64,000 nucleotides of DNA from an uncultured Opitutia bacterium (lineage in GTDB: Bacteria > Verrucomicrobiota > Verrucomicrobiia > Opitutales > Opitutaceae). Shown in pieces: positions 16,877-55,631 of the stretch. The first letter of the stretch is position 1; the number at the start of each line of letters is the position of its first letter. The stretch is taken from the NCBI GenBank assembly GCA_903862955.1, contig CAIPAH010000022.1:62001-126000 (forward strand), read 5' to 3'. Below the pieces are notes generated by a model. That model was not told where the DNA came from and made no database searches. It saw nothing but the letters and a program-made list of their open reading frames with translations. The position numbers and the translations under genes are program-made.

Positions 16877-19036
16877 ATGCTCTCGATGAAACCTTTCCCT
16901 TCCTCCCACCTCTCTCGTTCAATCACGCGCAGCTTGTTGGTTGCGTGTCTCGTATCCGCCGCCGCGGGGACCCTCTGGGCAAATAATGCGGAGCTGATGG
17001 CCTACAACGACAGCGTCGGGGCAGCGGTCCAGCTGGAGAACTTCGAAGTGGTCGGCCAGCGCGCGGAGTCCAAGAACTACAAGGTCGAGAACAGCATCAC
17101 CGCCACGAAGACCAACACGCCGCTGCTGGACGTCCCCCAGTCCATCTCGATCGTCTCGGAGGAGCAGATCAAGGACCAGCAGATGCTCAGCCTCGGCGAT
17201 GTGGTCCGTTACGTCCCGGGCATCACCGCTATCCAGGGCGAAAACAATCGCGACCAGATCGTCTTCCGTGGCAACAGCACGTCGGCCGACTTCTTCATCG
17301 ATGGCGTGCGGGACGACGTCCAATACTACCGCGATCTCTACAACCTGACCCGCGTGGAGGTCCTCCGCGGGCCCAACGCCATGATTTTCGGCCGCGGCGC
17401 CGGCGGCGGCCTGATCAACCGGGTCACGAAGCAGGCCGGCTTCATCCCGCTGCGGGAATTCACGTTCCAAGTCGGCTCGTTCGGCGACTTGCGCGCGACC
17501 ATCGACTTGAACCAACCCCTCAGCAGCCAAGCCGCCGTCCGTCTCAACACGATGCATGAGGACTCCGACAGCTTCCGCGATTTCGTCGGGCTGCACCGGT
17601 CCGCGGTCAACCCCACCCTGACCTTCGCTCCGTCAGCCCAAACCAAGCTGACGCTCGGCTACGAGCACCTGCACGACACGCGTACCGCCGACCGTGGGGT
17701 CACGTCCTTTCAAGGCCGTCCCGTCGGCGTGCCGATCAACACTTACTACGGCAATCCCTCTGACAGCCATGTGCGGGCCACGGTCGACTTGCTGTCAGCC
17801 ACCTTCGAACACCAGGCCGGCGAGCTGACCCTCCGCAATCACACGCTGTTCGGCGGCTACGACCGCGGCTACCAGAATTACGTGCCGGGCGCGGTGAACG
17901 CCGCCCAGACCCAGGTCACGCTCACAGCGTACAACAACGCCACAAAGCGCGAGAACCTCTTCAACCAAACCGACCTGACCACCACGATCACGACGGGCGA
18001 AATCAAGCACACCCTCCTCGGCGGCGTGGAGCTGGGACGCCAGTGGACGGACAATTTCCGCAACACCGGCTATTTCAACAATTCCGCCACCTCGCTGCTC
18101 GTCCCCTACGACAACCCGTTGATCACCACGCCGGTGACGTTCCGGCAAAGCGCGACCGACGCCGACAACCACCTCGATACAACCGTCGCGGCAGTCTACG
18201 TGCAGGACCAGGTCGACTTCTCGAAACAATGGCAGGCCATCGCCGGCCTCCGCTTCGACGCCTTCGGCCTCGACTACCACAACAACCGCGACGGCAGCTC
18301 CCTCAGCCGCGATGACAACCTCGTCTCGCCCCGCGCCGGCCTGATCTTCAAGCCCGTCGCGAACGCATCGCTCTACGCCAGCTACAGCGTCTCGTATCTG
18401 CCCAGTTCGGGCGACCAGTTCTCCTCGCTCACCGTGATCACGCAGCAGGTCGAACCGGAAAAGTTCACCAACTGCGAGGTCGGCGCCAAGTGGGACCTCA
18501 CGCCCAAATTCTCCCTCACGTCCGCGGTCTACCAGCTCGACCGCACCAACACCCGCTCCACCGACCCCACTGACTCGACGCGCATCATCCAGACCGGCAG
18601 CACCCGCACCGATGGCTTTGAGTTCGGCGTGAACGGCAGCGTCACCGCGGATTGGAGCGTTGCCGGCGGCTATGCCTATCAGGATGCCTTCATCCACAGC
18701 GCCACCACCGCCGCGGCCGCTGGTGCGCAGGTCGCGCAGGTGCCGCACCACAACTTCTCCCTGTGGAACAAATACCAGTTCACCCGGAAACTCGGCGCCG
18801 GTGTCGGCGTGATCTACCGGTCCCGGATGTTCGCGGGCGTGGACAACACCGTCACGCTGCCCGACTACATGCGGGTGGACGCCGCCGTTTATTACGCTTT
18901 CAACCGCCAGTGGCGGCTCCAGGCCAACGTCGAGAATCTCGGCAGCACGCGCTACTTCATCAACGCCGACAGCAACACGAACATCTCGCCCGGCTCGTCG
19001 CGGGCCGTGCACGTCATGCTGCGGGCGTTTTTCTGA
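16877..19036 (+). CDS. TonB-dependent siderophore receptor
   Basis: This 719-residue outer-membrane protein has a signal peptide ([17 protein letters not shown]). A TonB-box-like strand precedes the plug domain ([66 protein letters not shown]). The beta-barrel ends with aromatic F (VHVMLRAFF). The plug motifs match catecholate-siderophore (Fiu/FepA-like) receptors. There is no N-terminal STN signalling domain, so it is not a direct partner of a FecR protein. The alternative start is ATG at 16886. No siderophore transport genes are adjacent. Confidence 0.9.
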
Positions 19037-22520: not shown

Positions 22521-23108
22521 TCAGTTCATGTTGGCAATGGCCGCCATCTTGGCGGCTCGGCCGTTCTGAAACAGCACCTGCATCGTGTAGGATTGCAGCG
22601 TCGCCGGCTCCATGGAGCCGCCCTGCGGTCCGCCTGTCTTGCCAATGCTTTCGCCCCCGTTTCGGTCCATGCCCAAGGGCACTTTTTCAGCGCCGAGGTC
22701 GTTGGGATATTCCCCGGCGACCGTCTGCTCCCGCGACATCTGCGGCTGGTAGGCGGACTCCGTCGTGAACGGCTGGTGACGGAACCCGTGCACCGCGTCG
22801 ATGTTCGGGTAGTAGCGCTTCCACGTCCACAGCTCCGCGTGACCGGCGGGGAGGTCCTTCTTCTCAATCGTGTCGGGCCGACCCATGGCAATGTAGACCA
22901 CGTCGGGCGTGAAGCCCGCGGCCACCACCCCTTTGGCGACGAACCGCTTTTGCCACGGATTCAGTGCCGCATATGCCGCGGGTTTTTCGCGCGCCCGAGC
23001 GGCGACGCCGCCATCGGTCTCACAACCGCCGAGCAGGAGGGCAACCAACAGAATCCCGCCCGTCCGCAGCACCGTTTTCCTCAGGGCTAGTCGGGTGCGG
23101 GATTTCAC
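22521..23108 (-). CDS. Lipoprotein, paralogue of 27684-28229 (BamE-like?)
   Basis: This 195-residue protein has a lipoprotein signal (GGILLVALLLGGC, Cys about residue 29). It is clearly paralogous to the protein at 27684-28229: shared (T/S)DGG(V/I)AAR, PWQK(R/K), EGFTPD(V/M)VYIAMG(R/K)PD, ESAYQPQ, SIGKTGGPQGGSMEPA and K(M)A...NMN at the end. The segment around GFTPDVVYIAMGRPD recalls the SmpA/BamE fold (two helices then a strand), but this is only a resemblance. The start is GTG at 23108. It lies 14 bases downstream of the secreted protein gene that precedes it on the same strand, so both may be one operon. Confidence 0.75.
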   Translation of the reverse strand: MKSRTRLALRKTVLRTGGILLVALLLGGCETDGGVAARAREKPAAYAALNPWQKRFVAKGVVAAGFTPDVVYIAMGRPDTIEKKDLPAGHAELWTWKRYYPNIDAVHGFRHQPFTTESAYQPQMSREQTVAGEYPNDLGAEKVPLGMDRNGGESIGKTGGPQGGSMEPATLQSYTMQVLFQNGRAAKMAAIANMN

Positions 23109-23122
23109 GGCGGACGGGGAAT

Positions 23123-24067
23123 TTACTTCGGGGGGTCGTGGTGGAAAGGTTCTCCCACCTTCATGGGCCCGACATCCACCTTGCTATCAGGGATGTTGGT
23201 GTTGATCAGAACCTCGCGACGCCGGGGCAATTTGTCAAAATAAGGCGCGCCCGCGTGGAGCATTGTGGCCGCCACCGTGTTCAAATCCCGGTTGGCGGGG
23301 TCATCGACGGCCATGATGGTCTTCCAGAGCATGTGGGGCTTCTTGGCGGACTTCCGCGGATATTCCCACGCGGTGACCCGGATGAACAGTTTCTCGAAGG
23401 AGGCTTTTTGCAGATTCGCCTCATGGCCGTTCTCCTTGTCGGAGTAAAGCTGGCCCCAATCCGTGATCGTCTGGGTGGGAGGAGAATGGTCGGCCGTGAT
23501 CGGCTGCGCCCAAGTGTTGGGACCTGGAGCTTCCGGAAACAACGACGGGCTGGTTCGCGTCGTCGCCCCCGCCTGACTCAGCAATTGTGACTGGCTTACC
23601 GCACCCGCCACGCCCCCCACTTCGCCCGTGTCGACCATGTAGGGATTGGTCAACTCGCCCCGCCCGTAGCTGGCGGTAATCAGAATGTCGGGCGTTTGCC
23701 CCGGCACGAATTCCTTGAAGCCATTGGCTTCGAGTTCGTTCATCAGGACGCCGGCAATGTACTTTTCATCAACCGGTTTGACCAGGTCCTCCGGGGCCTT
23801 GATCAGGCGGACCGCGAGGATGCCGTAAATTTTCCCGTGTCCGCCGTCGCCCGGGACCTTGTTCTTGGCGTTGGACCAGAGATAGGTGGTGTCCTGCACC
23901 GTCGCCCGCACGCCGACCTCGATCGGTTCGCCCTGCGCGGCGGCCCGGTTCGGCAGCGCCCCGAGGGCCAGTGACACCAGTATCAGGGCCCATCTGCAGA
24001 TCGACGGGTTTCCACGGGGCAAAGAGGAGCGTTCGACGCTCCGACCAAAGCTGGGGGAAGTTTTCAT
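23123..24067 (-). CDS. Secreted protein, DUF4136-like, paralogue of 26486-27649
   Basis: This 314-residue protein has a signal peptide (ICRWALILVSLALGALPNRAAAQ). The mature part resembles the protein at 26486-27649: a helix plus FKEFVPGQTPDILITASYGRG versus FRAIQKGQRPDIVFTVEYGRD, NPYMVD versus NPYLDG, LFIRVTAWEY versus LYIRLNAWQY, and AVDDPANRDLNTVAATMLHAGAPYF versus the matching stretch there. The pattern (a partner-level helix, then PDI(L/V) strand) is DUF4136-like. Unlike its paralogue it lacks the C-terminal STN domain. Function unknown; probably periplasmic. Confidence 0.72.
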   Translation of the reverse strand: MKTSPSFGRSVERSSLPRGNPSICRWALILVSLALGALPNRAAAQGEPIEVGVRATVQDTTYLWSNAKNKVPGDGGHGKIYGILAVRLIKAPEDLVKPVDEKYIAGVLMNELEANGFKEFVPGQTPDILITASYGRGELTNPYMVDTGEVGGVAGAVSQSQLLSQAGATTRTSPSLFPEAPGPNTWAQPITADHSPPTQTITDWGQLYSDKENGHEANLQKASFEKLFIRVTAWEYPRKSAKKPHMLWKTIMAVDDPANRDLNTVAATMLHAGAPYFDKLPRRREVLINTNIPDSKVDVGPMKVGEPFHHDPPK

Positions 24068-24223: not shown

Positions 24224-24757
24224 TCATTTGTTCATGTAGAAAATCGTGCCCTTCTTGCCGCCGGTGACCTGGCGGTGATAGATTGCCGTGACCGGTTTGC
24301 CTGTCGTCGTGTCCACGAGCCAAAAATCGCTATACAGGCGGCCTTCCTCCGTCGCTTCGCGACCGTGCTCGATCATCACCTGGTAGGTCACGCCCGCCCG
24401 CGCGTGGAGCGGCAGATAGGCCCGGCTCATCAGGTTGGAATAGCGGTATTCCACCGCGAGGGTGTGCGGGCCCGGGGTGACGGCCAGGGGCTCGTCCGAG
24501 TGGTCAACGGCGTCCGCCACCGGCTTCAGGTCCACCATGCTCACGAAGCCGCGGTGCGCGCTCTGGAAGATCCCATCCTCGCCGAGGCGCGTTCCTTTCA
24601 CCCACGCGACCGGCATTCCGCGCGCGGGCGGGACATACGTTTCCTCGCCAGACGTTCCCGTCGTCGTGCCGCATCCGGCCGCCAGCAAACTCAGGCCGGT
24701 CGCCAGCAGACGCAGGAACAGCCGGCGGGGATTGGGCGACAGTAGGGCGAGGCGCAT
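24224..24757 (-). CDS. Small lipoprotein, unrecognised
   Basis: This 177-residue protein has a lipoprotein signal peptide (LFLRLLATGLSLLAAGC, Cys about residue 29). The mature part is beta-rich (VTPGPHTLAVEYRYSN, YLPLHARAGVTYQVMIEHG), with the pattern of a prealbumin-like sandwich domain. No family is recognised. ATG at 24757 gives a proper basic n-region; a start 7 codons upstream is possible. It is divergent from the sigma factor gene; the shared intergenic region of 189 bases holds a palindrome GGGAAAATATTCCC (24860-24873). Confidence 0.7.
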   Translation of the reverse strand: MRLALLSPNPRRLFLRLLATGLSLLAAGCGTTTGTSGEETYVPPARGMPVAWVKGTRLGEDGIFQSAHRGFVSMVDLKPVADAVDHSDEPLAVTPGPHTLAVEYRYSNLMSRAYLPLHARAGVTYQVMIEHGREATEEGRLYSDFWLVDTTTGKPVTAIYHRQVTGGKKGTIFYMNK

Positions 24758-24946
24758 GAGGGCTTCGAAAGATTCCAAAGAGGGGCGCGGCTTCCGCCGG
24801 AAGGTGTGAAAGTCCGTAAGCCGGAGACGGGCGGGCGGAACTTTTCCAGTAGTTCAGCTGGGAAAATATTCCCGTCGCCGCCTGGTTGAATCCCCTCGAC
24901 AATCCCGACTTGCGGACCGAAAGAAGGGTGCGGTCCGACCCTTCCC
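24758..24946. promoter_or_regulatory. Divergent intergenic region upstream of the ECF sigma operon
   Basis: The 189 bases between a lipoprotein gene and the sigma gene contain the imperfect palindrome GGGAA-AATA-TTCCC (24860-24873). It is a candidate operator or promoter element for either side. No convincing sigma-70 -10/-35 pair is seen. Confidence 0.3.
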
Positions 24947-25474
24947 GTGAGCACTGACGACTTGGCTTCCGCCCGCTGGTTTTCCGAAGAAGTGCAGGTC
25001 CATGCCGGCGCCCTGCGGGCGTGGCTGAGGGGTTCCTACCCCGTTTTGAGCGACCCCGAGAACCTCGTGCAGGAGTCACTCACGCGGGTATGGCGTGTCC
25101 GGCAAACCGGCCGCGTCGAATCCCCCAAGGCCCTGCTGTTCACCACGGCGCGCCATCTCGCCCTCGACGAGCTCCGCCGGCGGAAAATCGCGGCGATCGA
25201 GCCGCTAGCGGAAATCGACGCCCTGCCCGTCTTTGATGACAGCGCCACCGCCGCCGATGTCGCCGCCCGCCACCAGGAACTCGAACTCTTGACCCAAGCC
25301 ATCCAGTCACTCCCCACCCGCTGCCGCCAGGTGCTCACCCTGCGCAAGCTCCACGGCTTGTCGCAGAAGGAGATCGCCGCGCAACTCGGCATCTCCGAAC
25401 ACACCGTCGAGGCCCAGGTCGCCAACGGCGTGCGGGGTTGTGCCAAGTTTCTCGCCCGTCACGGCCTGCCCTGA
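24947..25474 (+). CDS. ECF-type RNA polymerase sigma factor (FecI-like)
   Basis: This 175-residue protein has sigma region 2 (LRAWLRGSYPVLSDPENLVQESLTRVWR, then ALLFTTARHLALDELRRRK) and region 4 (IQSLPTRCRQVLTLRKLHGLSQKEIAAQLGISEHTVE). There is no region 1 or 3, as in extracytoplasmic-function factors. It is followed after 14 bases by a FecR-type anti-sigma/regulator gene and then by the STN-tail gene, so it is the head of a cell-surface signalling operon. The start is GTG at 24947. The target promoters are unknown. Confidence 0.92.
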   Translation: MSTDDLASARWFSEEVQVHAGALRAWLRGSYPVLSDPENLVQESLTRVWRVRQTGRVESPKALLFTTARHLALDELRRRKIAAIEPLAEIDALPVFDDSATAADVAARHQELELLTQAIQSLPTRCRQVLTLRKLHGLSQKEIAAQLGISEHTVEAQVANGVRGCAKFLARHGLP

Positions 25475-25488
25475 TTCTCCGCACCGCC

Positions 25489-26526
25489 ATGCCTCCGCCC
25501 GATTTTTCGTCTGCCTCCGCCGACGCCATCGAATCCGCCGCCGCCCAGTGGCTCGCGCGGCTCGACCGTGGCTTGGCGGAACATGAGCAAGCCGAATTCA
25601 CCGCGTGGCGGGAGGCGGATCTCCGCCACGAGGCCGCGTTTCTCCGCCTCGAAAAAATCTGGGGCGCGCTCGACCAAGTGGCGCGCTTGCGTTCGGCCTC
25701 ACCCGCCGTCGAGCCTGACGAGCTCGCGCAGCCGCGTCGGCGCGCGCGCTGGATCTGGGCCCCGTTGCTCGCCGCCGCCGCGGCCGGTGTTCTCGTCTTT
25801 TTTTCGGGCAACCCCGCCCGTGAGTCCCATCCCCGACCCCACGCCATCGTCCATCCGGGCCCGCAACGCCTTGCACTCGAGGATGGTTCCATCGTCGATC
25901 TCCGGCCTGGCGCGAGAGTGGACGTGAAATTCACCCCCGCCGAACGCCACGTCCGCCTGCTCGAGGGTGAAGCCTTCTTCACCGTCACGAAAAATCCCGC
26001 GCGCCCGTTCATCGTCAGCGTCAATCAGGTCACGGTGCGCGCCGTCGGCACCGCCTTCAGCGTCGGGCTGGATCCACAGGAAATTTCCGTGCTGGTCACC
26101 GAGGGACGGGTTCGCGTCGACGAGATTGCCTCCGCGGCGAGCGCCACCGCCCCGTCCCGCGAGCTTTCGGCCCTCGCCGCCGGCCCGCAGGGCGTCATCG
26201 CCCTCGCGGCGGATCCGGCGTCCACCCGTTCCTTGGCCGTGAAGGTTTCCCAACTGCCGAGCGCCGAGATCGACCAGGCCTTGGCGTGGCAGGGACTTCA
26301 CCTGGAGTTCATCGAAGTGCCCTTGGGCGACGTCGTGGCCGATTTCAACCGCTACAATCGCCGGAAACTCGTCGTCACGGACGAGGCCACCGCGGCGATC
26401 CTCGTCGGCGGAAATTTCCGCGCCGATAACCTCGACGCGTTCATCCGGCTGCTGTCCGCGGGCTTCGGGGTCTCGGCTTTTCCCCATGGCGACGAGATCG
26501 TCCTACGCCAGGTGCACGGCCGCTAG
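25489..26526 (+). CDS. FecR family transmembrane sigma regulator
   Basis: This 345-residue protein starts with a FecR N-terminal domain of about 60 residues (DAIESAAAQWLARLDRGLAEHEQAEF, WREADLRHEAAFLRLEKIW). One TM segment (about 95-112, PLLAAAAAGVLVFF) follows, and the periplasmic FecR domain (VRLLEGEAFFTVTKNPARPFIV, VRAVGTAFSVGLDPQEISVLVTEGRV). The C-terminal 85 residues resemble an STN-like signalling fold (LGDVVADFNRYNRRKLVV, ILVGGNFRADNLDAFIRLLSAGF). Such proteins carry a surface signal to the sigma factor, normally from the STN domain of a TonB receptor. Its 3' end overlaps the next gene by 41 bases. Confidence 0.92.
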   Translation: MPPPDFSSASADAIESAAAQWLARLDRGLAEHEQAEFTAWREADLRHEAAFLRLEKIWGALDQVARLRSASPAVEPDELAQPRRRARWIWAPLLAAAAAGVLVFFSGNPARESHPRPHAIVHPGPQRLALEDGSIVDLRPGARVDVKFTPAERHVRLLEGEAFFTVTKNPARPFIVSVNQVTVRAVGTAFSVGLDPQEISVLVTEGRVRVDEIASAASATAPSRELSALAAGPQGVIALAADPASTRSLAVKVSQLPSAEIDQALAWQGLHLEFIEVPLGDVVADFNRYNRRKLVVTDEATAAILVGGNFRADNLDAFIRLLSAGFGVSAFPHGDEIVLRQVHGR

Positions 26527-27649
26527 CCCGCGGTCGCCGGCCCGGAATGCCGGGCTGGGAGCATGCGGTCGCGTGGTGCTGCTGGCCGCGTGGTGTGCGC
26601 TGCTGCCGCTCGTTCTCCGCGGTGCCGGCAGCGTCCCGGCGGAAATCGGCGTTCGCTCCGCCCTGGCCGATCCCTACGCCCCCGCGCCCGCCCCGGCGGC
26701 GTCTCACGAAGACGGAAGACCGGGCCCGATTTATTACATCGCCTCGATCCAGCAGATCTCGGGCGACGAGCTGATTTCGCCGCCCATCAGCGTGAAGGTC
26801 TTGTTGCGGCAGGCCCGCCAGGCGCTGGACGCCCACGGCTTTCGCGCGATCCAAAAAGGCCAGCGGCCGGACATCGTCTTCACGGTCGAATACGGACGGG
26901 ACTGGCTGGACAATCCCTATCTCGACGGGACCCGCGACTTGCCTGCCGTGGTCGGGGTTTCGAGCGTCACGCCATCCAATGGCTCGGGTCTCAGCTTCGA
27001 ACAGGTGCCCCACCAGAACATTACGGGCGCACCTATCCAGCTGATGAATCAGTTCGAGGTCGGCCGGGAAGCCCGGATCCAGAAGGCGGAGTCCGAGAAA
27101 CTCTACATCCGCCTCAACGCCTGGCAGTATCAGGCCGACGCCAAGGCGCGGCCCCGGCTGTTGTGGGTGACGACCATGGTGGTCGACGACCCGGATCACG
27201 TCGACCTGAGCGCCGTGTCGGTCTCGATGCTCGCCGCCGGTGCGCCCTATTTTGGCCGGGAAATCCGGGACGGAGAGATCACGATCCCCGCCCCCGTCCC
27301 CGACGGCCATGTGAAGGTGGGCGCCCCGCAGGTGCTCGATCCCCTCGCATCGCCAGCGGCTCCCGTCGCCGTCCAGCCCCCGCCGGCGCCGCCGCCTGCC
27401 GCGGAACCGCGAAAGAAATTCGACCTGCCCGCCGGCGCCGCCGCGTCCGCCTTGCAGGCGTATTCGCGGCAGTCAGGCTTGGAGGTCATCTATCCGGTCG
27501 AGCAAGTCCGCGCGATCCGCACGAAGCGGGTCAGCGGTGAACTCAACCCGCGCACCGCGCTCGAGCGACTGCTGGCCGGCACGGGTTTGGTGGCCGTGCG
27601 GGACGAGATGACGGGCGCCATCGCGGTCCGCCCGGCTTCGCCCCGGTGA
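26486..27649 (+). CDS. Secreted protein with C-terminal STN signalling domain
   Basis: This 387-residue protein has an N-terminal signal peptide (VVLLAAWCALLPLVLRGAG). A DUF4136-like domain follows (about residues 65-300), paralogous to the protein at 23123-24067, then a proline-rich linker (APVAVQPPPAPPPAAEP, about 312-328). It ends in a domain matching the STN family (KFDLPAGAAASALQAYSRQ, VIYPVEQVRAIRTKRVSGEL, ERLLAGTGL). STN domains usually sit at the N-terminus of FecA-type TonB receptors or secretins; here one sits at the C-terminus of a non-receptor protein. ATG at 26486 overlaps fecR by 41 bases, coupling translation. An inferred role is input to the FecR/sigma pair. Confidence 0.75.
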   Translation: MATRSSYARCTAASPRSPARNAGLGACGRVVLLAAWCALLPLVLRGAGSVPAEIGVRSALADPYAPAPAPAASHEDGRPGPIYYIASIQQISGDELISPPISVKVLLRQARQALDAHGFRAIQKGQRPDIVFTVEYGRDWLDNPYLDGTRDLPAVVGVSSVTPSNGSGLSFEQVPHQNITGAPIQLMNQFEVGREARIQKAESEKLYIRLNAWQYQADAKARPRLLWVTTMVVDDPDHVDLSAVSVSMLAAGAPYFGREIRDGEITIPAPVPDGHVKVGAPQVLDPLASPAAPVAVQPPPAPPPAAEPRKKFDLPAGAAASALQAYSRQSGLEVIYPVEQVRAIRTKRVSGELNPRTALERLLAGTGLVAVRDEMTGAIAVRPASPR

Positions 27650-27683: not shown

Positions 27684-28229
27684 CTAGTTCATGTTGGGCG
27701 ACGCCGCCATCTTGGAGACCTTGTCCTTCTCAAACATGATCTGGATGGTATACGACGTAAGGTTCGCCGGCTCCATCGAGCCGCCCTGCGGTCCCCCGGT
27801 CTTGCCAATGGACGCACCTCCGCCCGGGGACATGCCCAAGGGGATCATTTTGCCGGTGTTTGGGTCGATCTGGGTGGTGGTCGCCTGGGGCTGGTAGGCG
27901 GAATCGGTGTTGAAATTCGCGTAGTGCATGCCGCGCAAGGCCCCATTCGTCGGGTAATAGCGGCTGTAGGTCCAAATCTCCACTTTGCCCTGCGGGAAAT
28001 CCTTGGTCTCCACCTTGTCCGGCTTGCCCATCGCGATGTAAACCATGTCGGGCGTGAAGCCCTCGGCGACGGTGCCCTTGTCGATGTATTTCTTTTGCCA
28101 GGGCTTCAGTGAGGAGTACGTGGCCGACTTTTCCTGGCTGCGGGCGGCAATGCCGCCGTCCGATTCACAACCGACAAACATCACGGCGAGCAGAACCGCG
28201 GCGCCGACGGAGACAGGGAACGTTTTCAT
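27684..28229 (-). CDS. Lipoprotein, paralogue of 22521-23108
   Basis: This 181-residue protein has a lipoprotein signal (VGAAVLLAVMFVGC, Cys about residue 21) and mature sequence highly similar to 22521-23108, the two sharing GFTPDMVYIAMGKPD, SAYQPQ and SIGKTGGPQGGSMEPAN. It differs in having a shorter N-terminus. The pair brackets the sigma/FecR/STN gene set, both on the minus strand. The start is ATG. Function unknown; a BamE-like fold is a weak guess. Confidence 0.75.
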   Translation of the reverse strand: MKTFPVSVGAAVLLAVMFVGCESDGGIAARSQEKSATYSSLKPWQKKYIDKGTVAEGFTPDMVYIAMGKPDKVETKDFPQGKVEIWTYSRYYPTNGALRGMHYANFNTDSAYQPQATTTQIDPNTGKMIPLGMSPGGGASIGKTGGPQGGSMEPANLTSYTIQIMFEKDKVSKMAASPNMN

Positions 28230-52472: not shown

Positions 52473-53383
52473 ATGAAACAGACGATCATACAGCTGATCC
52501 GGTTGAGTTCCGCCCTCGGCTGCGCCTGCGGCAGCCTCGCTCTTGGTCTCCGCGCGCAAACCTCTGCGCCGGCGACGACGCCCCCCGCGACCACGGCGCC
52601 CGCCGCCACCTCGCCGTCCACCAGTCCCGACCCGGATCACGTCACCAAGCTCGCGAAGTTCACCGTGACCGAGGTGCCGCTCGACGACCAGGTGCTCCCG
52701 ACCGTCCGCCCCGTGGGATCGGTGATGGGCGACGACCGCAACATCCTCGATATCCCGCGCTCGGTCTCAAGCGTGAACGCGGCCATGATGCGCGAACGCA
52801 TGGTGAAAAACGCCATGGACTTCGGCCAGTTCTCCGCCGGCGTTTACTCCGCAGCGCAATACGGCATCCCGTCGGTGCCCTTCATTCGCGGCGAACTCTC
52901 CCAGCTCTACATGGGGGGTCAGCAGATCCCGTTCTCCCGCAACTCCACGCCGCCCAGCTTCAACGGCGTCGAGGCGTTCGACATCGTCAAGGGTCCCGGC
53001 TCCGCCGTCTACGGCCCCCAGACCGAGGGCGCGGGCGGTTACGTCAACTTCGTCCTCAAACAGCCGTATTTCGACCGGCAGCACACCACCCTGGACATCA
53101 CCTACGGCGGCTGGTCCAGCGGACGGTCGTATTCGAATACCGAGCTCACCCTCGATACCAGCGGGCCGATCAGTGACAAACTCGCCTACCGGATCAGCTA
53201 TCTCGGCCGCGGCGGCGATCAGTATTACCTCAACGCCAAGGACGAAACCCAGGACCTCTACGCCGCCCTGACCTACCGGCCCAACAGCAAGGTGGAGCAC
53301 GAAGCGTGGGTGCAGGCCTATGAGACCCGGACCAACGAAATCCCCGGCGTCAGCCGCGTCACCCAGGACTTCATCGCCAGCGG
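52473..53383 (+). pseudogene. Truncated TonB-dependent receptor
   Basis: The ATG frame encodes a signal peptide (SALGCACGSLALGLRAQ), a Thr/Ala/Pro-rich linker, a TonB-dependent plug (LDIPRSVSSVNAAMMRERM, GVYSAAQYGIPSVPFIRGE, VEAFDIVKGPGSAVYGPQTEGAGG) and the first barrel strands (LDITYGGWSSGRSYSNTELT, LAYRISYLGRGGDQYYLN). Homology ends near residue 303 (about 53,380) where a full receptor would need about 500 more residues; the frame then runs antisense through a nucleoside hydrolase remnant. It lies 55 bases after an NMT1-like binding protein, so it once may have supplied the same ligand. Confidence 0.85.
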
Positions 53384-53917
53384 ATCACAGCGGACGTTCC
53401 ACTCCGCCCTTGGCCGCTGGAATTCGCCCGCCATGAGAGCGAAGCGCGGGATCGCGGGTTTCAAGTCGGGCTCGCGGAGCAGCAGCGTGGCGAGATTGGT
53501 CATCGGCCCCGTCCCGATGGGAACGGTCTTTCCGGGATGCAGGCGCAGCTGAGCGGCGAGGAGTTCGACGCCGTGCTGTGACGGCTTGCGCGGCAGAGCG
53601 GACGCCGGGCGGGCACCGGGCAATTGCACCAACCACGGCCGCGCGACGGGACCGTTGGGCCAGATGTCAGGAGTGACGCGGCCTGGCAGTGGATGCCCGC
53701 CGCCGGCGGCGACGCGTACGCGGGCGCTCGGGCCCGCGGTGCTGGCAAGCAACGTCCGGGCGAGCCGCGCGCGGTTTTCCGTTTCGCCCAGCACGGTGCT
53801 CACGCCGGCGAGTTTCAGCTCGGGACTCGCGCAGATCAGGCTCAGCGCAAGGATGTCGTCCGTGTCGTCCCCGATGTCGGTGTCGAGCCAGACGGACTGC
53901 GGAATCTTCTTCGGCAT
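53381..53917 (-). pseudogene. Truncated nucleoside hydrolase (inosine-uridine family)
   Basis: From ATG at 53917 the frame has the nucleoside hydrolase N-terminal motif VWLDTDIGDDTDDILAL, ELKLAGVSTVLGETENRARL, VPIGTGPMTNLATLLLREP (calcium-binding region) and AEWNVRCDP (the NxxxDP motif). Homology ends at about 53,381, where it meets the truncated TonB receptor tail-to-tail; about 120 C-terminal residues, including the active-site His region, are missing. In the family these enzymes hydrolyse N-glycosidic bonds of nucleosides. Confidence 0.85.
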
Positions 53918-53973
53918 GGCGGAGGCAGCCAAGCGTCGGGCGTCCCCCGGGGCAAGTTTGCTCCGACTGGTGG

Positions 53974-55251
53974 TCAGGTGTGCAATTCCGGGAAGAAAAG
54001 CGGCGCGCTGAGCGCGAGGCCGTCGCCGACACTGGTGAACTCGCCGCCGTCGCGAATTTTATCCGCGCCGAATCGGCCGGTAAATTCCGCGCGCAAACGG
54101 CGGAGGAGCGCGGTGCCGCCGGTCAGGAAGACCGTCTCGACGCTCGCCGGCGCAATGTGGGCGCCCGCGAGAAACCGGTCGAGGTAGTCGACGATTTGCG
54201 CGGTGAGATCGGCGGAATTGCGGTCGAACTCCTCGAGCGTGAGCTGTTCGTCGAGCGGAATGCGCGGGTGGGTGAAACGCAACGGGGCGACCTCCTGCGT
54301 GGTGAGGGCAATCTTGGCGCCCTCGATCATCTGGAAGATCGCGAAGCCCTGGTTGTCCTTCACGAGCGACTCCAGGCGCTCGAAGGCCGCCGGGTCGCTG
54401 GAGAGCCGGGCGAGGCGCCAAATCAGGTCGAGCTTGGGCGCGTTGCGCAGGAAGACGATCTGGTCCCAGTGGCAGATCTGGCGGTGGAGGGTGTCGGGCA
54501 CCTCGAGCCGCTTGCCCCAGCTTTCGAACGTTGCGCCGCGGCCGAACCGTGGGGTGAGTTTGTGCCACATCGTGGCGGAATCGTATTTGTTGCCCGCGAC
54601 CGGCAGGCCGCCGGTGGCGAGGATGTCGCCGGCCCGCCCGGTCATTCCCTGCCGGCGCGGATCGAGTTGCACGACGGTGAAATCCGACGTGCCACCACCG
54701 AAGTCACCGACGAGCACGCGTTCGGGTTGGGTGATGCGCGCTTCGTAGGCGAAGGCGGCGGCGATGGGTTCGAATTGGAAATGGATTTCCTCAAAGCCCG
54801 CGAGGCGCGCTGCCATGCGGAGCCGGTCCTGCGCGACTTCGTCCTCGGCCGGATCGGTCGAGAAGACGGCGGGCCGCCCCATCACGACGCGTTTCACATC
54901 CTGGCGCGTGACCTCGTCGGCCTTTGCTTTCAGATGGCGCAGAAAGAAAGCGATGAGGTCCTCCAATGGGTAGGACTGGTTGTTGACGATTGTCTCGGTG
55001 AACGTGCGGTTGGGCAGGATGGTCTTGATCGCCTGGAAGAACCGCCCGCGCATCCGGTCCGACACGTAGCGGAGCTTCGCGGCGTTGCCGATCAGCGGTG
55101 GATCGCGGCGCAGCGTGTAGGGAAAATACATGAACGACGACTCGACGCCGGCGATGCGCGGATCGCGCAGCAGCGCGCGTTTTTCGACGTCCCAGATGGT
55201 GATGGACGAGTTGCTGGTGCCGAAATCGATGCCGTAGACGTAGGTGGGCAT
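53974..55251 (-). CDS. Hsp70-like chaperone, YegD type
   Basis: This 425-residue protein has the actin/Hsp70 ATPase fold: phosphate-1 VYGIDFGTSNSSITIWD, GRPAVFS, phosphate-2 VLVGDFGGGTSDFTVVQ, GSGL-like GGLPVAGNKYD, and adenosine motif VETVFLTGGTALLRRL. No substrate-binding domain is present, as in the YegD subfamily. The start is ATG at 55251; the open frame upstream is not protein-like. Function of this subfamily is not established. Confidence 0.88.
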   Translation of the reverse strand: MPTYVYGIDFGTSNSSITIWDVEKRALLRDPRIAGVESSFMYFPYTLRRDPPLIGNAAKLRYVSDRMRGRFFQAIKTILPNRTFTETIVNNQSYPLEDLIAFFLRHLKAKADEVTRQDVKRVVMGRPAVFSTDPAEDEVAQDRLRMAARLAGFEEIHFQFEPIAAAFAYEARITQPERVLVGDFGGGTSDFTVVQLDPRRQGMTGRAGDILATGGLPVAGNKYDSATMWHKLTPRFGRGATFESWGKRLEVPDTLHRQICHWDQIVFLRNAPKLDLIWRLARLSSDPAAFERLESLVKDNQGFAIFQMIEGAKIALTTQEVAPLRFTHPRIPLDEQLTLEEFDRNSADLTAQIVDYLDRFLAGAHIAPASVETVFLTGGTALLRRLRAEFTGRFGADKIRDGGEFTSVGDGLALSAPLFFPELHT

Positions 55252-55631
55252 GGAGCTTCTCCGGAGGGAAAACCGACGTTGAAAATGCGGCAGGGGAAAA
55301 CAGGGGACGCCGTGGTCTCCTGGGCGAGGGGTGGAGAAGCCACTGACCGCGAGTGGCTTGCACAAGCCTGAAGCGCTTTTCGCAGCGAAATTTAAGCCGG
55401 GCTGGAGGATTGCGTCCGACAAGCTGCGGCGGTAAAAGAAAGGTTGGCGGTCGCCATTACGTGCGGCGAGAAGCGTGCGATGATGTGCCTTCCGACCTGC
55501 AGCAACATTGGAGCCGGGGCGCCCTCGCCCCGGATGGACGGAGGGACGCGGCGGGGCGCCGCATCTCCAACGATGCATATGAATCACGGGCTGGAAGCCC
55601 GTGCCACGCCGGAGGATGCAGGCGGTTCACG
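55252..55631. repeat. Non-coding region with several strong hairpins
   Basis: No gene is supported in these 380 bases. There are three palindromes: CCGGGGC/GCCCCGG (55514-55533), GCGGCG/CGCCGC (55548-55562) and the perfect CACGGGCT-gga-AGCCCGTG (55585-55603). They look like REP elements. The region separates the Hsp70-like gene from an integrase remnant. Confidence 0.6.

Follow-up and report, generated by a model that had tools for sequence, protein, structure and literature searches.

A sigma–fecR operon of an Opitutaceae genome with a receptor-type STN domain at the C-terminus of a putative periplasmic protein

Cell-surface signalling of the FecI–FecR–FecA type, which uses transducers such as FecA, FpvA, PupB and FoxA, has been treated as a matter of TonB receptors. 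The C-terminal regions of FecR-type proteins and the STN domains of receptors have a common fold and associate by β-strand pairing. When no signal is present, the signalling domain of the Fox system binds the anti-sigma protein and protects it against proteolysis, the receptor being cut for this purpose (PMC11637429). The one studied exception that we found is the PUMA3 system (VreA–VreI–VreR) of Pseudomonas aeruginosa, in which VreA is barrel-less and mostly soluble, with the STN domain first and a TolA/TonB-like domain behind it (PMC2729926).

Here, we describe an operon from a lake-type Opitutaceae genome (3.6 Mb in 31 contigs), analysed within a stretch of 64,000 nucleotides that is referred to as the window. 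Its genes follow one another on the plus strand in the order sigma factor, fecR and STN partner (P0003), spanning positions 24947-27649 of the window, with these features:

24838-24896, plus strand: upstream control signature TTTCCAGTA...GGAAAAT...CTCGAC, common to receptor-type sister operons
24947-25474, plus strand: ECF sigma factor, FecI-like, 175 residues, GTG start (profile searches)
25489-26526, plus strand: FecR-type anti-sigma factor with a DUF4880 N-terminus, one membrane span, a FecR domain and a C-terminal region (Pfam)
26486-27649, plus strand: fusion protein P0003, 387 residues, with a signal peptide, a PelC/CsgG/DUF4136-fold domain, a proline-rich linker and a C-terminal STN domain (sequence, profiles and structure model)
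26633-27355, plus strand: DUF4136-like sensor-candidate domain of P0003, residues 50-290 (structure model, structural matches and family alignment)
27356-27400, plus strand: proline-rich linker of P0003, residues 291-305 (sequence)
27401-27646, plus strand: STN signalling domain and four-residue end of P0003, residues 306-387 (Pfam, NCBIfam, conserved positions and PDB match)

Like systems of the FecI–FecR–FecA type, the operon combines an ECF sigma factor, a FecR protein with a DUF4880 region and an STN domain of the FpvA/PupA/PupB kind, whereas P0003 differs from their transducers in having no plug, barrel or TonB box, a C-terminal STN domain and an N-terminus with the PelC/CsgG/DUF4136 fold. 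It resembles VreA as a receptor-like protein that has a signal peptide, no barrel and an STN domain beside an unrelated periplasmic domain. In PUMA3, however, vreA precedes vreI and vreR, whereas here the order is sigma, fecR and partner, the STN domain is C-terminal and the other domain is unrelated to that of VreA. A barrel-less STN partner is known from VreA, and what is new is this build, a C-terminal STN domain on a PelC/CsgG/DUF4136-fold domain; the open-licence literature that we searched held no description of a C-terminal STN domain or of a DUF4136/PelC-fold partner.

The sigma factor and FecR are both typical of their families. The former matches Sigma70_r4_2 (E=4e-16) and Sigma70_r2 (E=1e-7), is 52-68% identical to the sigma factors of receptor-type operons and scores above the cut-off of the sigma70-ECF superfamily model, the FecI subfamily models remaining below their own cut-offs. 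FecR matches PF04773 (E=1e-18) and DUF4880 (E=1e-7), has a single transmembrane stretch as judged by eye, and its C-terminal region aligns with those of other FecR proteins. The coupling of P0003 to these genes, proposed in an earlier reading of the sequence alone, is supported; all three genes lie on the plus strand, and that of P0003 overlaps fecR by 41 bases. No plug or barrel gene adjoins the operon, as that reading had also noted: the nearest one seen (16877-19033) is about 6 kb away and has no STN match. A wrong joining of two genes during assembly would explain why only one genome carries the fusion, but we consider this highly improbable: the operon lies well inside a 304-kb contig (C22) of a draft assembly that is rated 100% complete and 0.12% contaminated, P0003 is one open frame of even composition, and overlaps of the kind seen with fecR are typical of operon genes.

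The sequence comparisons identify the tail of P0003 as a genuine receptor-type STN signalling domain. Its PDB matches are all receptor signalling domains (FpvA E=4e-9, PupA 2e-6 and PupB 8e-5), and the NCBIfam FecA model matches residues 305-383 (E=3.5e-6). The Pfam STN model reaches E=3.3e-5 and 24.0 bits, just under its curated cut-off of 28.4. The domain retains 20 of 22 positions with a conservation of 70% or more among 35 STN domains of sigma–fecR operons, and it is 50-60% identical to the nearest receptor STN domains of the family, which adjoin the closest FecR genes. It was modelled at low confidence (pLDDT 60 when folded alone without an alignment), too low for the model to serve as proof. 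The sequence-only reading had thus recognized the domain correctly but had begun it too late, at residue 325; the true span is approximately residues 305-383. Since the protein ends four residues further on, it has no room for a TonB box, plug or barrel, and no plug or barrel Pfam match was found in it. We also considered an STN domain of the secretin type and rejected it, the two other Pfam STN matches of the genome being secretin-like proteins that are unlike the P0003 tail.

The N-terminal domain of P0003 comprises some 220 residues (approximately 51-270) and is predicted to adopt a PelC/CsgG/DUF4136-type fold over residues ~51-265. Its model has a core pLDDT of mostly 80-97 and is most similar to PelC (Z 10.7), CsgG (9.0), the DUF4136 structure 4f54 (9.0) and TraT (8.6), with Foldseek E values of 1.6e-5 to 8e-4 for structures of this fold. 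No Pfam family, DUF4136 (PF13590) included, matches the domain; three of 19 members of its family match DUF4136 at E<=0.01 (best 0.0022), below the Pfam cut-off. The genome holds several copies of this DUF4136-like family, among them a paralogue of 34% identity that lies directly upstream (23126-24067, opposite strand) and itself matches DUF4136 weakly (E=0.003). Rings at the outer membrane are formed by PelC, CsgG and TraT, the matched structure entries naming a TraT decamer and a PelC dodecamer. P0003 shares its predicted fold with such DUF4136/PelC/CsgG/TraT outer-membrane lipoproteins and differs from them by its added STN tail, by a sequence below the Pfam DUF4136 cut-off and by the absence of a lipobox: none was seen by eye, and the residue at -1 of the signal-peptide core cysteine (AAWC) is not small. 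The suggestion that the protein is lipid-linked is consequently unsupported, and P0003 is likelier to be a soluble periplasmic protein than a lipoprotein.

To place the operon, we used a tree of the sigma and FecR proteins from 37 operons, in which the window pair falls within a group of receptor-type operons (support 97); the one member of this group labelled X in the tree (L099) is also a receptor by Pfam. Among 252 family genomes, the closest FecR relatives are approximately 50-58% identical and are followed by STN-bearing proteins of approximately 1000-1340 residues; those that were tested have plug domains and, in part, barrel domains. On this phylogenetic evidence, the sigma factor and FecR descend from receptor-type operons. 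A tree of the STN domains alone (~90 columns) gave the P0003 tail no firm placement.

The upstream region keeps a signature of this clade. A CTSGAC box is found in 12 of the 13 clade operons examined, the window included, and in none of 20 other operons; this count was reached in 0 of 2000 shuffles, which understate chance somewhat because the motif was recognized post hoc. TTTCC..TA and GGAAAAT boxes occur upstream in several clade members, the TTTCC..GGRAAAT pattern occurs once in the window's own genome, and a scan for standard sigma-70 promoters yielded no match. Because the pair nests in the receptor clade and the upstream signature is kept, the receptor body has apparently been lost and replaced: a receptor-type operon appears to have lost plug and barrel, retained its STN domain and acquired a DUF4136-like domain N-terminal to it.

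Several other origins were rejected. Derivation from operons in which the STN domain precedes a long domain of another kind (described below) is ruled out by the sigma and FecR tree. Orthology with receptor operons of the same genus (L080, L081 and L095) fails because these form their own clade (support 99), whereas the window pair groups with other genera (support 97); the flanking genes of L080 and L081 do not match those of the window either. A split receptor with an STN-less ortholog elsewhere in the genome was sought with a receptor of genome G165 as query, and the best full-length matches were 30-33% identical, none of them ortholog-like.

Four sister genomes (G161, G167, G168 and G170) carry the same flanking genes at 64-93% identity. 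The contig of G161 stops short of the site and is uninformative. The sigma–fecR–fusion operon is absent from the site in all three others, where the gap holds a single lipoprotein-like gene of the GWx type (G168), a GWx, a DUF4136-like and a second GWx gene (G167) or other content (G170), which makes the operon a gain or a relocation at a variable spot in this genome. This variability, the missing receptor body and the singleton status of the fusion would also suit a remnant, in which the receptor was deleted, the STN domain left behind became fused fortuitously with a paralogue and the operon is drifting. We regard such a remnant as improbable, since the operon displays no decay: the reading frame has no frameshift or stop, the end branch of the window pair is ordinary (0.47 against a median of 0.45), the GC3 resembles that of the neighbouring genes and composition is even, and both the STN positions and the control signature are conserved.

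A survey of 252 family genomes and 384 evenly drawn genomes of the class yielded no second DUF4136–STN fusion; a limited number of candidates was scored per genome, so that a diverged copy could escape. The fusion as query found no relative in contigs from 84,980 species. The DUF4136-like family found 17 loci in the same contigs, all from Opitutae, Opitutaceae or Verrucomicrobia assemblies, and in none of them does an STN gene adjoin the DUF4136-like gene. Linkage of this family to sigma, fecR or STN genes, on which the earlier reading had made its proposal depend, is occasional (four of the 29 best family loci). Genes for both parts of the fusion do lie close together in other genomes: a five-gene operon of genome G011 (L130, 4873-10333) consists of sigma, fecR, two DUF4136-like genes and an STN-long-domain gene, which links the two domains outside the window's genome, and in G105 two DUF4136-like genes precede a gene of the STN-long-domain type.

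The STN-long-domain operons of the same family (n=10: L085, L086, L130, L133, L136, L137, L139, L140, L141 and L145) likewise couple a secreted non-receptor STN protein to sigma and fecR. They differ from the window operon in forming a separate sigma/FecR clade (support 99, including one FecR with no STN nearby) and in having an N-terminal STN domain followed by a C-terminal region of ~550 residues instead of a DUF4136-like domain; the frames comprise 650-783 residues, and the two that were scanned have no Pfam match in this region. The architecture had been put forward as possibly undescribed. This holds for the domain order, which occurs in no other genome sampled, and not for the principle of a barrel-less STN protein, which is already known from VreA (PMC2729926) and recurs in the family.

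Another protein of the same genus (G165; L083, 7820-9382, minus strand) comprises 521 residues and follows sigma and fecR, with no receptor match nearby. Its STN domain is succeeded, as judged by eye, by a TonB box and a plug start (VTGSRL) and then by an unrelated region of ~370 residues, and perhaps represents another receptor replacement. We tentatively suggest that the STN domain is a portable adaptor: the lineages of the window fusion and of the STN-long-domain clade, as a minimum, and probably also that of L083, may independently have moved FecR/sigma switches from TonB receptors to periplasmic proteins, with a PelC/CsgG-fold domain as the sensor and TonB-independent envelope sensing in the present case.

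Our data suggest that the locus most probably encodes a functional cell-surface-signalling system that senses the envelope. We think it probable, on balance, that it is a Fec-type operon in which a soluble periplasmic protein has replaced the TonB-dependent transducer, and from this we infer both STN–FecR pairing and envelope sensing. Since a small periplasmic protein with a signalling tail stands in place of the receptor, the switch probably responds to the envelope rather than to a nutrient; because P0003 lacks a TonB box, a plug and a barrel, the signal cannot be TonB-driven substrate uptake through this protein. In the proposed mechanism, the STN tail would pair in the periplasm with the C-terminal part of FecR, which is STN-like, and this contact would shield FecR from proteolysis and keep the sigma factor silent, as in FoxA/FoxR. 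The PelC/CsgG-type domain would act via the proline linker on the tail and set its state, and an envelope change (damage, a different assembly state, or a bound outer-membrane or exopolysaccharide component) would lead to FecR cleavage and sigma release. By analogy with the Fox system, an STN tail tethered to a periplasmic protein may suffice for holding FecR, and the N-terminal domain would determine the moment of release. Against the model, the fusion is a single case from one draft assembly, its STN part folds at low confidence, and the regulon of VreA, the sole studied barrel-less partner that we found, did not require it when phosphate was scarce (PMC4971064).

The main rival to this sensing model is that the fusion merely delivers an STN domain which stabilizes FecR and holds the sigma factor inactive, while the DUF4136-like part serves export and stability and senses nothing. 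The dispensability of VreA during phosphate starvation makes this the principal alternative (PMC4971064), and the Fox signalling domain protects a FecR-type protein in the absence of signal and works after receptor cleavage (PMC11637429). We nonetheless find such a permanent lock unlikely, because P0003 has a whole PelC/CsgG-fold domain that retains most family-conserved residues in the family alignment and exceeds the needs of export.

The locus and its relatives suggest that the STN–FecR contact is a general plug-in through which other periplasmic proteins may drive ECF sigma factors. P0003 offers a minimal partner for testing this contact alone, a disputed point after the FoxA/FoxR work, and the wider pattern of receptor replacement deserves a census.

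Additional genes were noted around the operon and in related loci. A lipoprotein-like gene (24227-24778, minus strand) is divergent from the sigma gene and has no relative in the loci fetched from other genomes. Two small, related lipoprotein-like genes with a weak GWxTD match (22524-23108 and 27687-28229, both minus strand) flank the operon, and relatives of these adjoin several STN-long-domain operons and also a DUF4136-like gene (L159). Further along the window, a 359-residue frame with a plug domain only (52473-53549, plus strand) is followed by a long frame (53689-55371, plus strand), possibly a split TonB receptor. In four other loci (L082, L084, L148 and L149), STN receptors after sigma and fecR have a frame that is broken or in two, possibly through frameshifts. 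Finally, the window's own genome contains a canonical sigma–fecR–STN-receptor operon of a distant clade (L050, 4029-9121, minus strand), which is suited as a specificity control.
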